Shown piece by piece: positions 593 to 47,053 of a stretch of DNA of 64,000 nt. Location: assembly GCA_938040735.1 (NCBI GenBank), contig CALHYE010000001.1, positions 62,001-126,000 on the forward strand. The letters run 5' to 3'. The stretch's first letter is position 1, and each line of letters opens with the position of its first letter. The notes under the pieces are model-generated. The model made no database searches. It saw only the letters and a list, made by a program, of their open reading frames with translations, and had not been told where the DNA came from. Made by a program: the position numbers and the translations under genes. Source of the DNA: an uncultured Bellilinea sp. GTDB taxonomy: Bacteria; Chloroflexota; Anaerolineae; Anaerolineales; Anaerolineaceae.

Positions 593-686
593 CGGGAATG
601 GATGGGAGTCGAACCCACCGCGGCCCGCAACGCGGCCCGCCACCGGTTTTGAAGACCGGGGAGCCCACCGGGACCCTACCACTCCC
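593..686 (-). tRNA. selC: tRNA-Sec (anticodon UCA), selC
   Basis: The 94-nt sequence folds into the bacterial selenocysteine tRNA form. It has an 8-bp acceptor (GGGAGTGG with CCATTCCC), a 6-bp D stem with a CGGT loop, a 5-bp anticodon stem CCGGT/ACCGG around loop CTTCAAA (anticodon TCA), a long GC-rich variable arm, and a 5-bp T stem around TTCGACT. The discriminator is G, as in E. coli selC. The genome continues CC then T, so the full CCA is not encoded. It implies that the organism decodes UGA as selenocysteine. No selA, selB or selD gene lies in this window. Confidence 0.93.
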
Positions 687-40517: not shown

Positions 40518-42257
40518 CTATGTTACGCCGAGAAGGCGCTTGATTTCCTCGTGCAGGCGGGGGATGGCTTCCTCTAACGGCAAAGTCAGACGCTCTTCCT
40601 GATGGCGGCGTTTGAGTTCCACCGTCCCATTTTCAAGCGTGCGTTTGGAAACCGTGACGCGCAGGGGAATGCCGATCAGATCAGCGTCGTTGAATTTGAC
40701 GCCGGGGCTTTCTTCGCGGTCATCATAAAGGACTTCCAGACCGGCTGCCTGCATCTGCTCGTAGAGCCGGCCGGCCGTTTGCCGGGCCGCTTCGCCATCC
40801 TTACCGCTGAGCAATACGAGGTGAACCTGAAACGGGGCGATCACCGCCGGCAGTTGGAGACCTTTGTCGTCGTGATAGGCTTCTGCCAGGCAGCCAATCA
40901 GCCGCCCGATGCCGATGCCGTAGGATCCCATCACCACTGGCTTGATTTCCCCAACTTCATCTTGAAAGGTGCAGCCTAGCGCCTCTGAATAAGCCGTGCC
41001 GAGCTGGAAAATGTGACCCACCTCGATGCCGCGTTCGGCGCGCAGGGGCGCCTGACACTGCGGGCAGGGATCGCCCTCTCGCGCAGCGGTCAGGTCGGCC
41101 ACCAGCGGGGTGGTGTAGTCCCTGCCGAAGTTGACATTGCGCAGGTGGTAATCTTGCTCATTAGCGCCGGCAACCAGATTAGGGGAGAGGGGGATCAGAT
41201 CGTCCGCCGCTACCAGCAAATCACGCAAACCGACCGGAGAGGCAAAACCCGGCACCGCGCCGCTGGCGCAAATTTCCTCTTCAGTAGCCGGGCGCAGGTC
41301 AATTGCGCCGATCAGGCTGGCCAGTTTGGTCTCGTTGAGTTCCATATCCCCGCGCAGGATGGCCATCACCAGCCGTTCGTAAGGCTGGTTGTTTTCCAGC
41401 AGGGTGGCGGTCAGAAAAACGGCTTTGGCGGTTTGGGATTCTGGAATGCCTAAAAAACGCGCCAGCGATTCGATGGTGCGCGTCTGGGGGGTGTGGACTT
41501 TTTCCAAAGACAGAGCCTCTTCTTGCGGCGGCTGCGGTTTAGCAAAACGGGCCACCTGCCGGTTGGCTGCGTAGCCGCAGGCATCGCATATCATCACCGT
41601 ATCTTCCCCAATCGGGTTGAGGTACACGAATTCGTGGGAGCGTTTACCGCCCATCATGCCGCTGTCGGAAGCCACAGGGATAACCGGCAAACCCAGCCGG
41701 CGAAAGATGCGCAAATACGCCTCGTAATGGGCCTGATACTGCTTTTCCAGCCCCGCCCAATCGGCATCCAGCGAGTAGGAGTCCTTCATGATGAACTCGC
41801 GCACGCGGATCAGCCCGGCGCGTGGGCGGGGATCATCGCGGAACTTGGTCTGAATCTGATAGAGCAGGCGCGGCAGGTGACGGTGGGAACGCACCTCGCG
41901 CCGCACCAGATCGGCGACCGCTTCATCGTGAGTCATCGCCAGGACCAGGTCTCGCCCGGCGCGGTCTTTCAAACGCATCATCTCAGCGCCAATGCGGTAG
42001 TAACGGCCGCTTTCTTTCCAGATTTCGGCGGGCAGCGCTACCGGCAGGCTGACTTCCTGCCCGCCAATGGCTTCCATTTCCTCGCGCAGGATGCGCTCAA
42101 TTTTGCGCTGAACGCGCAATCCCAGCGGCAGGGCGGCAAAGATGCCGGCCGCCACCTGCCGAAAGTAACCGGCGCGCAGCAGAAAGGTAAAGCCGGGCGA
42201 TTGGGCTTCAGCGGGGGTTTCCCGCAGGGTCTGATTGAAAAGAGCGGACATGCGCAT
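40518..42257 (-). CDS. proS: Prolyl-tRNA synthetase, bacterial type with editing insertion
   Basis: A 579-residue class II synthetase. Motif 1 (LPLGLRVQRKIERILREEM), motif 2 (FRDDPRPRAGLIRVREFIMKD) and motif 3 (GSYGIGIGRLIG) are present. Between them lies a YbaK-like editing insert (about 225-390) that clears mischarged Ala-tRNA. The C-terminal anticodon-binding domain starts at about residue 465. The start at 42257 is chosen over upstream codons because the conserved MSALFNQTL begins there. It is 23 bases downstream of the CDF transporter and shares its leader. Confidence 0.96.
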   Translation of the reverse strand: MRMSALFNQTLRETPAEAQSPGFTFLLRAGYFRQVAAGIFAALPLGLRVQRKIERILREEMEAIGGQEVSLPVALPAEIWKESGRYYRIGAEMMRLKDRAGRDLVLAMTHDEAVADLVRREVRSHRHLPRLLYQIQTKFRDDPRPRAGLIRVREFIMKDSYSLDADWAGLEKQYQAHYEAYLRIFRRLGLPVIPVASDSGMMGGKRSHEFVYLNPIGEDTVMICDACGYAANRQVARFAKPQPPQEEALSLEKVHTPQTRTIESLARFLGIPESQTAKAVFLTATLLENNQPYERLVMAILRGDMELNETKLASLIGAIDLRPATEEEICASGAVPGFASPVGLRDLLVAADDLIPLSPNLVAGANEQDYHLRNVNFGRDYTTPLVADLTAAREGDPCPQCQAPLRAERGIEVGHIFQLGTAYSEALGCTFQDEVGEIKPVVMGSYGIGIGRLIGCLAEAYHDDKGLQLPAVIAPFQVHLVLLSGKDGEAARQTAGRLYEQMQAAGLEVLYDDREESPGVKFNDADLIGIPLRVTVSKRTLENGTVELKRRHQEERLTLPLEEAIPRLHEEIKRLLGVT

Positions 42258-42280
42258 GGCAGAGGGATTCCTTTCGGGGT

Positions 42281-43177
42281 TTATTCCCAATCGTCCGGTT
42301 CAAGATGGACGTAAGCGCGGTCAATTTCGGGCATGGCTTCCAGCCGGGCGATGATCTCATCGGTGATGCGGTGCGTCTCCGTCAGGGTGGTGTTCCCGTC
42401 TACGTTGACATGCAGGTCGGCAATCAGGCGCGGGCCGGAATAATCGGTCATCAGGTGATGGACGCGCAGCACGCCCGGCACGGAGGAGGCTTCCTGAATA
42501 ATGCGCTGGCGCAGTTCTTCGGATGCGCCAGCGCCGGTCAGGAAATTGAGGTTTTCGCGGGCGGCCAGAAATGCGGCTCGAAAGATCCAAATGGACACGG
42601 CAAAACCGGCAATCGGGTCGGTGACGGGGTGAATGAGTTTTGAACCAAAGGCTCCAACAAAAGCCGCCGTGGAGGTGAGTACATCGCTCAGGTTGTCCTT
42701 GGCGGCGGTGTTGAGGGTTGGGCTGGTCAGTTTTCTGGCGGTGTTGCGGATGAAGAGGTACATGCCCACTTTAACCGCCGCGCTGAAGAGCAGGACGAGG
42801 GTGGGCAGGCCGGGGTCAATGGCCAGGCCGCCCTGTTGAAATCGGACAAAAGAGGCGCGCAGGGCTTCGTATCCGGCGAACGCCATGGAGAAGGAGATGA
42901 GTGAGCCGACCAGCGGCTCAAATCGGCTGTGGCCCTGCGGGTGAGAGAGGTCGGGCGGGCGTTGGGCAAGGTAGAGACCCAGCACCATCATGACGGAATA
43001 CAAGACGTCCGAGATGGAGTTGGCCGCATCCGAATACAGGGCGACCGAACCGGAAAGGTAGGCCGCCAAACTCTTGACGACTGCCAGCAGGACGTTTCCG
43101 CTGATGGTGACCAGTAAAGCCGAACGGTACAGGGCGTTTTCTGCCGGTTGAGGTGTGTAATCGCGTACCCAGCGCAT
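42281..43177 (-). CDS. Cation diffusion facilitator (CDF) metal transporter
   Basis: A 298-residue transporter with six membrane helices and a cytoplasmic C-terminal domain. The metal site block in helix 2 reads SDAANSISD, with Asn where zinc exporters often have His; helix 5 has NTAAKDNLSDVL. This points to Mn, Fe, Co or other divalent metal rather than clear Zn preference, but it is not decisive. GGAGG lies seven bases before the ATG at 43177. It precedes proS in one operon and has a hairpin plus T tract in its leader. Confidence 0.9.
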   Translation of the reverse strand: MRWVRDYTPQPAENALYRSALLVTISGNVLLAVVKSLAAYLSGSVALYSDAANSISDVLYSVMMVLGLYLAQRPPDLSHPQGHSRFEPLVGSLISFSMAFAGYEALRASFVRFQQGGLAIDPGLPTLVLLFSAAVKVGMYLFIRNTARKLTSPTLNTAAKDNLSDVLTSTAAFVGAFGSKLIHPVTDPIAGFAVSIWIFRAAFLAARENLNFLTGAGASEELRQRIIQEASSVPGVLRVHHLMTDYSGPRLIADLHVNVDGNTTLTETHRITDEIIARLEAMPEIDRAYVHLEPDDWE

Positions 43178-43190
43178 CAATCCTCCGTAT

Positions 43191-43248
43191 AAAAAAACCC
43201 CAAAGATGCGGTTGCCCCTGCCGAAGAAACCGGCTTGCACCTTTGAGG
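43191..43248 (-). promoter_or_regulatory. Attenuator-like leader hairpin of the CDF-proS operon
   Basis: On the minus strand a 12-bp stem pairs CCTCAAAGGTGC (43248-43237) with GCATCTTTGGGG (43209-43198), encloses a GCCG/CGGC mini-stem and is followed by seven T (43197-43191). This intrinsic terminator sits 14 bases upstream of the translation start. Further upstream is CTCCGC/GCGGAG. Such placement implies conditional read-through, by a metal or tRNA-sensing element. It does not match a T-box or riboswitch that I can name with confidence. Confidence 0.65.
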
Positions 43249-43362
43249 CTGTTGACTGTGGATTTTTTGGAAGGCTGTGTGCTCCGCCAGCGGAGTTTAG
43301 TTTACCACAAAAAATTATGGAACTGAGGTTATCTTACAATGACAAATGTAATAAAAATTTGG

Positions 43363-45135: not shown

Positions 45136-45890
45136 ACGGTTGCCTCCACAGCCTGATTGAGGGCAGTCCGCACCTCGCCCAGCAGGTCTTGAAAGTCGGC
45201 CCGATCTTCGCGGCGCGGGTGGGGCAGGTCTATTCTGAAATCGGCGACGATTTGACCGGGCGCGGATGAGAGGACAATCACCCGCTCGGCTAATCGCAGG
45301 GCTTCGTAGATATTGTGAGTTACCCACAAAACGGTGGGCTGGGCCGGCTGCCACAGGTCTAACAGCATGGAAGCCAGTTGCTCACGGGTGATTTCGTCCA
45401 GGGCGGCGAAGGGTTCGTCCATCAGCCACAGGCCGGCATTTTGGATCAACAAACGCGCCAGCGCCAGCCGTTGCTGCATCCCCCCGGACAGAGTAAAGGG
45501 ATAGGCGCCGGCAAACTGTTCCAGTCCAACCCGCGCTAAGGCCTGCCGCACGCTCATCTGATGATTGAGTTGGGTAGCCAGCAGTTTGCGCGCCAGGGCA
45601 ATGTTGCCTTCCACCGTTAGCCACGGGAGAAGCGCCGGACTTTGTGCCAGCCAGGCCACCTGCCGGGCGGCGTTGGCTTCGGCGGGAGTTTTGCCGTCCA
45701 GCCGGATGCTCCCGCTGGTTGGCTGAAGCAGGCTGGCAATCAGCCGCAATAAGGTGGACTTGCCGCAGCCGCTCGGCCCAATGATCGCAACGAACTGCCC
45801 GCTGGGAATGTACAAATTGAGGTTTTGCAGCGCCGGGAGCGGCTGGGGGGTAAAAAAAATGTGACTGAGAGCGGTGATTTCGACCTTCAT
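45132..45890 (-). CDS. NitT/TauT-type ABC transporter ATPase
   Basis: A 252-residue ATPase with Walker A GPSGCGKSTLL, the signature LSGGMQQRLALARLLI, Walker B LWLMDEPFAALD and the H-loop THNIYEALRLA. It is closest in style to SsuB/TauB/ThiZ-type subunits. The ATG overlaps the stop of the IclR-type regulator by four bases, so regulator and importer are translationally coupled. Confidence 0.94.
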   Translation of the reverse strand: MKVEITALSHIFFTPQPLPALQNLNLYIPSGQFVAIIGPSGCGKSTLLRLIASLLQPTSGSIRLDGKTPAEANAARQVAWLAQSPALLPWLTVEGNIALARKLLATQLNHQMSVRQALARVGLEQFAGAYPFTLSGGMQQRLALARLLIQNAGLWLMDEPFAALDEITREQLASMLLDLWQPAQPTVLWVTHNIYEALRLAERVIVLSSAPGQIVADFRIDLPHPRREDRADFQDLLGEVRTALNQAVEATV

Positions 45891-47053
45891 GGGATTGAAA
45901 CTTCACCTTTTGGCGAATGGGCGGTCAACAGACCTTTCCAGCCGCGCACGCTTTCGGGGATGATTTGAAAGACCTGTTGAATCTGATCGCCGGAAGGAGC
46001 AAGAGCCGCTTCGCCAAGGTAACGTTCAGAAAGGCGGCGCAGCAGTTCGTTCAGTCGTGGATCGTCCTTTGCAAGCGGGAGAGGCAAAGCCTTGCCGCGG
46101 GCAGAAACACGGCGCAAGGGCGGCCACGGTTCGTCAATCGTCAGAGAGGCTTCCGGGTTGCTGAGCAGGTATTCGGCCCACAACGAACCCCGCCAGGCAA
46201 TCAGGTAAAAGGCTTTTCCGTCCCATTCCTGCCAGACCGGGATGACATGCGGTTTGCCATCCGGACGCAGGCAGGCCAGACGTGCCGTCCACGGGCCTTG
46301 TAAAAAGCGGCGGATTTCCTGAGGATTTAGTTGGGCTTCCGCGGGCAGCTGGCCGGGCGGCTGAACCTGATAAGGAGCATAGAAGGTGGCTCCTAACCGG
46401 TAAGAGAGCCTGGCGGCGAGGGCGCGTAATTCCGTCAGCCATTGCTGGACGAGCGTTTGTTCCGTCCAGCGGAAGGACGGCGCGCTGAGCAGCAAAGCGG
46501 CCTGCGGGTGAACCCCATCCGGACAAACAGGCAGAGCCAGTTCGATGATTTCATTTGAGAGTCGGAGCGAGTAGCCGTTGCGAATGATGGAGGCGGCCGG
46601 GGGGGATTGGAATAAATCCTCGGCTGCGCTGCCGGCAGGGAGCGCTTCACCCACCGGATAGGCGCTACGGACGGTTTGGCGGCTTTCCACTTGAGCCAGC
46701 GTCAGAACGCCTTGAGCCGCCGGAACGACAATCAGCAGCGTTTCCGGACAAAGATGCTGGCGGGCTTCCTGATAAAATGCGTCCATCAGGTTTTGGTGAA
46801 ACTCGCTGCTGGTGGCGCGCCAGGCGGTCAGCCGCGGGCCGGCGCGGTAACGTCCGCGCCGTTCGCTTTGTTCAAGGTAACCGGCATTTTTAAGGGTGCG
46901 CAACAAGAGGAATAATGCCCCGCGCGAAATTCCGAATTGGGGCAAAATTTCTTGCGGCGTCAGACCTTCGGGGTGGCTGAGGAACAGTTCCACCAGTTTG
47001 AGGGTGCGTTCGGCTGTGGATACCAACGAATCTTTTTGCATTTTATTGTTCAT
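45887..47053 (-). CDS. IclR-type regulator fused to a pyridoxamine 5'-phosphate oxidase-like split-barrel domain
   Basis: A 388-residue fusion. Residues about 10-70 are an IclR winged helix (ISRGALFLLLRTLKNAGYLE). Residues 75-235 are the IclR ligand domain, although its usual motifs are weak. Residues about 245-380 are a PNPOx-like flavin/F420-binding split barrel (WTARLACLRPDGKPHVIPVWQEWDG, split at several points, and LIAWRGSLWAEYLL). The first gene of the ABC importer operon, it presumably senses the transported ligand or a flavin. Start could be 47053 or the Met at 47041. An inverted repeat overlaps the first start. Confidence 0.85.
   Translation of the reverse strand: MNNKMQKDSLVSTAERTLKLVELFLSHPEGLTPQEILPQFGISRGALFLLLRTLKNAGYLEQSERRGRYRAGPRLTAWRATSSEFHQNLMDAFYQEARQHLCPETLLIVVPAAQGVLTLAQVESRQTVRSAYPVGEALPAGSAAEDLFQSPPAASIIRNGYSLRLSNEIIELALPVCPDGVHPQAALLLSAPSFRWTEQTLVQQWLTELRALAARLSYRLGATFYAPYQVQPPGQLPAEAQLNPQEIRRFLQGPWTARLACLRPDGKPHVIPVWQEWDGKAFYLIAWRGSLWAEYLLSNPEASLTIDEPWPPLRRVSARGKALPLPLAKDDPRLNELLRRLSERYLGEAALAPSGDQIQQVFQIIPESVRGWKGLLTAHSPKGEVSIP

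Follow-up and report, generated by a model that had tools for sequence, protein, structure and literature searches.

A conserved leader RNA upstream of CDF transporter genes in Anaerolineaceae is a candidate metal-sensing riboswitch

Introduction

The stretch of DNA examined here, 64,000 nucleotides from an uncultured Bellilinea sp. and hereafter referred to as the window, contains a leader that precedes the gene for a CDF transporter and proS, the gene for prolyl-tRNA synthetase. Which of these two genes does the leader serve, and to what does it respond? The initial annotation, which considered a leader shared by these two genes to be odd, offered a metal riboswitch and an unusual tRNA-sensing leader as possible answers. 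The question is of interest because few classes of riboswitch that sense metal ions have been described, and, to our knowledge, only one for Mn2+.

Results

Organization of the Leader in the Window

The gene located directly downstream of the leader (42281..43177, minus strand, ATG at 43177) encodes a CDF transporter with matches to Pfam PF01545/PF16916 and TIGR01297. The A-site residues N53/D57/D161/D165 constitute an ND-DD site, so that the protein is a predicted Mn2+ exporter and its gene the putative target of regulation. The proS gene (40518..42290, minus strand, NCBIfam NF006625) is located downstream and overlaps the end of the CDF gene; the two are probably co-transcribed in this genome. 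The gene identities in the initial annotation were thus confirmed. The leader is flanked on its other side by an NMT1/THI5-like gene on the same strand. It was also noted that a gene for an IclR helix-turn-helix fused to a PNPOx domain (45887-47053, minus strand) is located upstream of the NMT1/THI5-like ABC transporter set, and that a gene for tRNA-Sec is located at 594-686 (minus strand).

As read from the window, the leader is on the minus strand and amounts to more than a terminator. From 5' to 3' it is composed of an extended -10 element, a hairpin, here called P1, with the loop GGAGCACACA, a block, CCUCAAAGGUGC, an intrinsic terminator and a ribosome-binding site, followed by the CDF gene. 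The extended -10 element, TGGTAAACT, is located at 43307-43299. P1, GGC[GGAGCACACA]GCC (43273..43288), is a putative aptamer recognized from 23 homologs and from the covariation described below, and the GCAC in its loop (43279..43282; GCA in 23/23 and the final C in 22/23 of the homologs) is a putative pseudoknot arm. The block CCTCAAAGGTGC (43237..43248), in which CAAAGGTGC is invariant in 23/23, contains the GUGC that may be the partner of this arm. The block also serves as the 5' strand of the terminator (43191..43250), which was identified from the fold, the alignment of homologs and a script, and which consists of a stem of 12 to 14 bp followed by seven U. In this stem, CCTCAAAGGTGC (43248-43237) pairs with GCATCTTTGGGG (43209-43198) over 12 bp, or 14 bp in the fold, and the seven T are located at 43197-43191, ahead of the ribosome-binding site GGAGG (43182..43186).

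The 12-bp hairpin and seven T that had been reported between the promoter and the ribosome-binding site are accordingly present, as is the other stem reported upstream, which corresponds to a CTCCG/CGGAG pairing at about 43295-43282. That description is extended here by P1 (43288-43273) and by the conserved block that may be its partner. The CTCCG/CGGAG pairing represents an alternative hairpin (43282..43295) found only in Bellilinea, and its pairing potential is largely retained across the 4 Bellilinea copies, as judged by eye. Such a hairpin would hide the GGAG of the conserved loop and would in this way compete with the loop. P1 contains only 3 contiguous pairs in the window genome, and is likewise weak across Bellilinea.

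The region of 76 nt that contains the hairpin had a folding energy of -28.6 kcal/mol (z = -4.80), which was equaled by 0 of 200 shuffled sequences, and the z-value for the entire leader of 133 nt was only -1.78 relative to shuffles. A generic scan, the terminator rule of which permits only loops of 3 to 8 nt, did not list this terminator and gave no sigma-70 promoter at its threshold.

Homologs and Their Association with CDF Genes

Among the upstream regions of 30 CDF orthologs, some leaders contained two sequence blocks in common ahead of a terminator. The arrangement shared with the relatives is GRC-GGnGCACnCA-GCC, a spacer of 16 to 30 nt, and then CAAAGGUGC within the 5' strand of the terminator. 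Ten leaders that had been found upstream of CDF genes served to construct a covariance model, R1, with which 147 Anaerolineaceae genomes were searched. The search yielded 23 strong matches, one per genome, with E-values from 4e-18 to 1.7e-8, and these were separated by a gap from the next match at E = 8e-6. A CDF gene was located directly downstream of all 23 strong copies, although in one genome (G006) the gene was truncated by the contig end and recognized from its first 18 residues. Since 13 of the 23 copies had not been used in R1, and all 13 of these preceded CDF genes, the association is not circular. No CDF gene was visible downstream of the 7 next-best matches (L096-L102), and on inspection of these the matches from E = 8e-6 on were classed as chance.

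The carriers span several genera of Anaerolineaceae, including Bellilinea caldifistulae and Leptolinea tardivitalis, and the CDF proteins encoded behind the motif were about 50% to 95% identical to that of the window. When 84,980 species, each represented by one genome, were scanned for the exact pattern, 37 matches were obtained. Of these, 19 were located directly upstream of a CDF gene, and all 19 were in Chloroflexota (Bellilinea, Leptolinea, and other Anaerolineaceae or Chloroflexi). The other 18 were scattered, had neither a CDF gene in the locus nor the rest of the element, and were about as many as expected by chance according to a rough estimate. An exact match in G031 was located where an adenylate-kinase-like frame ends. 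A pattern search in 396 genomes of the class gave matches only in the window genome (G000) and in G002. A second model, R2, gave only 6 weak matches outside the family (E-values from 6e-6 to 4e-5) among 400 genomes of the phylum and 301 of the order, located in or beside unrelated open frames with no CDF gene visible downstream. These searches were run with the strict filters of Infernal, and may therefore miss weak relatives. On the gene tree, the motif required 7 gains or losses compared to 15.1 with shuffled labels, and is thus clustered, though without a clean single origin.

The position of proS could be assessed wherever a locus of a motif-bearing genome extended 1.5 kb or more downstream, as was the case in 16 genomes; the sequence of the other 7 was too short. 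The proS gene was found behind the CDF gene in only 4 of the 16 (the window genome, G002, G005, and G025) and was absent in 12, which indicates that the element goes with the CDF gene and that proS is a passenger.

Another type of leader was identified within the last 110 nt or so before the ATG of the orthologous CDF gene in L036, L037, L038, and L041. It consists of TATAGCTGyGGGTTnnnGnnGCCATTCA followed by a terminator, and was limited to 4 sister genomes of the same genus (4 of 121 genomes of the family), with no Rfam match in the 3 loci scanned.

Conserved Segments, Covariation, and the Terminator

The loop of P1 follows the consensus GGnGCACnCA with few exceptions in the 23 copies and is closed by an invariant C-G pair. 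In the stem, both bases vary in a compensatory manner in pairs 3-26, 4-25, and 6-23. The number of cells with two-sided changes was 20, compared to 9.5 in shuffles, with 0 of 500 shuffles as high, a control that removes relatedness only partly. The covariation score of P1 was 0.240, against 0.147 as the best value obtained when the pairing was slid. No covariation was apparent from pair counts when only the first 10 sequences were used, the signal coming only with the 23 sequences, and the second pair was A-C instead of G-C in 8 of the 23. Covariation among relatives had been proposed in the initial annotation as a check on the leader, and the small hairpin P1 does covary.

The block CAAAGGUGC was invariant across the 23 copies, whereas the partner strand in the terminator varied, which suggests that the block has a second role. 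The GCAC of the loop is complementary to the GUGC of the block, which is located in or against the 5' strand of the terminator, so that aptamer and terminator would exclude each other if the loop pairs with the block. The complementarity suggests an H-type pseudoknot in competition with the terminator, as judged from invariant bases rather than from covariation: both arms are nearly invariant, and the sole change, C to A in G072, is uncompensated. By rough arithmetic, two segments conserved to this degree would share a complementary 4-mer by chance in about one case in five.

A script detected a terminator overlapping the conserved block in 20 of the 23 copies. Of the remaining three, G005 has a plain terminator by eye, G028 has the stem in another register, and G557 is without a proper U-run. 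For comparison, a terminator was found in the last 130 nt of only 5 of 22 CDF leaders that lack the motif, 4 of which belong to the second leader type. An extended -10 element similar to TGnTAnAnT is located shortly before P1, 25 to 32 nt before the GCAC of the loop, in 19 of the 23 copies. Promoter and leader are also kept in G006, where the frame upstream of them resembles a DNA methyltransferase and is on the opposite strand.

The Metal Site of the CDF Proteins and yybP-ykoY-like Leaders

The ND-DD A-site was present in 21 of the 22 readable CDF proteins encoded behind the motif; the exception was G028 with M-D-D-D, and the site in G006 was unreadable due to the contig end. ND-DD is the signature of bacterial CDF clade 1, which has been tied experimentally to Mn (PMC5703985). 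The orthologs without the motif contained ND-DD in 22 of 22 cases, and the site does therefore not separate controlled from uncontrolled genes; it speaks for the metal transported and not directly for the ligand of the RNA. We also noted that several genomes contain HD-HD (zinc-type) CDF paralogs in the vicinity of the CDF gene preceded by the motif, in the upstream part of the locus (L084, L088/L145, L091, L092, and others). These paralogs beside motif loci had no strong motif copy of their own.

Outside the window, the same genome contains a yybP-ykoY-like leader, below the Rfam cut-off, before a P-type ATPase gene (G000:C1:157814-157910; L108 1501-1597). Similar RF00080-like leaders in the genus score 30 to 39 bits, also below the cut-off. 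They precede genes for MntP in G003 and, by frame likeness, in G004 (L103 is a locus of this kind), and genes for P-type ATPases in G000 and, by likeness, in G002, G005, and G006. A second Mn2+ RNA would be redundant in a genome with such a leader, which counts against Mn2+ as the ligand; given these leaders, two Mn2+ RNAs in one cell are possible and not required. In other Chloroflexota, 6 of 301 genomes had yybP-ykoY matches, and no CDF-like start was seen behind the loci inspected.

Discussion

A Proposed Switch

We are highly confident that the element is a structured regulatory leader, an orphan cis-regulatory RNA that belongs to no Rfam family. This orphan riboswitch candidate may represent a new kind of metal-sensing RNA, limited, so far as searched, to Anaerolineaceae. 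Of the two guesses in the initial annotation, the metal riboswitch is the better one and has gained partial support, from a conserved and covarying leader before a CDF gene in 23 of 23 cases. We consider it somewhat probable, from the sequence comparisons, that the leader is a metal-sensing ON switch before the CDF exporter gene, with Mn2+ as the most likely ligand. The more specific proposal, which we advance only tentatively, is that it represents a second natural class of Mn2+ riboswitch of about 50 to 65 nt, unrelated to yybP-ykoY, with an H-type pseudoknot that uses a strand of the terminator itself, and at work in the same cells.

Transcription would start just ahead of P1, and the nascent RNA would form P1, the loop of which, GGAGCACnCA, could pair via GCAC with the GUGC of the downstream block, CUCAAAGGUGC. 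When the metal, most likely Mn2+, is abundant, its binding would stabilize the pseudoknot, the block would be unavailable for the terminator, and the polymerase would read into the exporter gene. At low metal, the block would instead pair with its 3' complement, the terminator would form at the U-run, and transcription would stop. We infer the ON direction from the logic of an exporter gene and from the fact that the block and the terminator overlap.

If true, a second and much smaller Mn2+ class would reveal with how small a number of nucleotides Mn2+ can be sensed selectively, and would provide a compact model for cotranscriptional switching. The element offers a testable regulator of metal homeostasis in Anaerolineaceae, with named carriers at hand.

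Alternative Explanations

The same RNA switch might respond to another ligand, either a different divalent cation (Fe2+, Co2+, Ni2+, Zn2+, or Cd2+) or a metal-linked metabolite. We consider this unlikely, though to be taken seriously, as known metal riboswitches can be promiscuous, the selectivity of the CDF proteins is predicted from 4 residues only, and a cation pump gene of the window genome is already preceded by a yybP-ykoY-like leader. Against it stand the lack of strong motif copies at the zinc-type paralogs beside several motif loci and the placement of ND-DD proteins in the Mn clade (PMC5703985).

The element might also be an attenuator in which a protein or a small RNA, rather than a ligand, binds the conserved hairpin and sets the antiterminated form. 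A hairpin with a conserved loop and an overlapping terminator is also the design used by RNA-binding antiterminators. This is nevertheless improbable, because the conservation resides in two distant segments joined by variable spacers, and one strong copy per genome before one type of gene would be unusual for a protein regulator.

Very unlikely is an arrangement in which MntR or a similar metalloregulator binds the two blocks as half-sites of a DNA operator, followed by an ordinary terminator. In its favor, the conserved blocks are located just downstream of the -10 element, but they are non-palindromic, their spacing varies from 16 to 30 nt, P1 covaries, and the second block is within the terminator in at least 20 of 23 copies.

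Intergenic terminators are common, and the region is located between two genes on the same strand. It is still highly improbable that the element serves only as insulation between genes or terminates the NMT1/THI5-like gene upstream constitutively, since an extended -10 element precedes it in 19 of 23 copies, G006 keeps it despite an upstream frame on the opposite strand, and so few CDF leaders without the motif (5 of 22) have such a terminator.

Finally, proS might be controlled by a sensor of tRNA-Pro, T-box-like or otherwise, in line with the second guess of the initial annotation. The overlap of proS with the CDF gene end in the window genome suggests such a sensor, which is scarcely credible given that 12 of the 16 motif genomes assessed lack proS downstream of the CDF gene and that the T-box covariance model of Rfam had no match in the window leader; it was rejected on these grounds. 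A T-box-like leader that scored 80.8 bits against an Rfam cut-off of 93 was observed in L034 (2567-2803, plus strand), divergent from the CDF gene.

Comparison with Known RNA Systems

With the 4227 families of Rfam 15, the window leader gave only chance matches at E-values up to 10, and a scan of 16 motif loci together with 4 loci without the motif gave none that coincided with the element at E-values up to 5. A known riboswitch was on this basis rejected at lax thresholds for the window leader and the 16 loci. The literature searched, in which subscription journals were thinly covered, contained no description of such a leader that we could find.

The yybP-ykoY RNA is a leader of metal-efflux genes, with a terminator as the expression platform in many of its members. 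The element resembles it in that it also precedes the gene for a metal exporter, here a CDF protein in 23 of 23 cases, and possibly in ligand and in the ON direction. It differs in being much smaller, in the lack of sequence resemblance, and in the absence of a match to RF00080 at E-values up to 5 to 10. The NiCo (czcD) riboswitch, which contains a four-way junction, likewise controls CDF-type metal exporters, but there is no Rfam match to it here and the CDF proteins have a Mn-type site.

The HMP-PP (thiS motif) riboswitch was considered because its design is likewise built into a terminator and because an NMT1/THI5-like gene precedes the leader in the window. It is described as a very small aptamer with a conserved strand inside the terminator stem and a possible pseudoknot, which acts as an ON switch on thi (HET-P branch) genes in classes of Firmicutes and one other phylum (PMC6478431). 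The conserved strand of the element is also part of a terminator stem, a likeness of mechanism only; P1 is located outside the terminator, and the HMP-PP riboswitch was rejected on the genes controlled, which in all 23 strong copies encode a CDF exporter and not a thiamin protein. In the fluoride (crcB) riboswitch, finally, an aptamer with a pseudoknot is in competition with a terminator located downstream (PMC11077080); the genes are different and there is no Rfam match, but the competition between pseudoknot and terminator that we propose for the element would be of the same kind.
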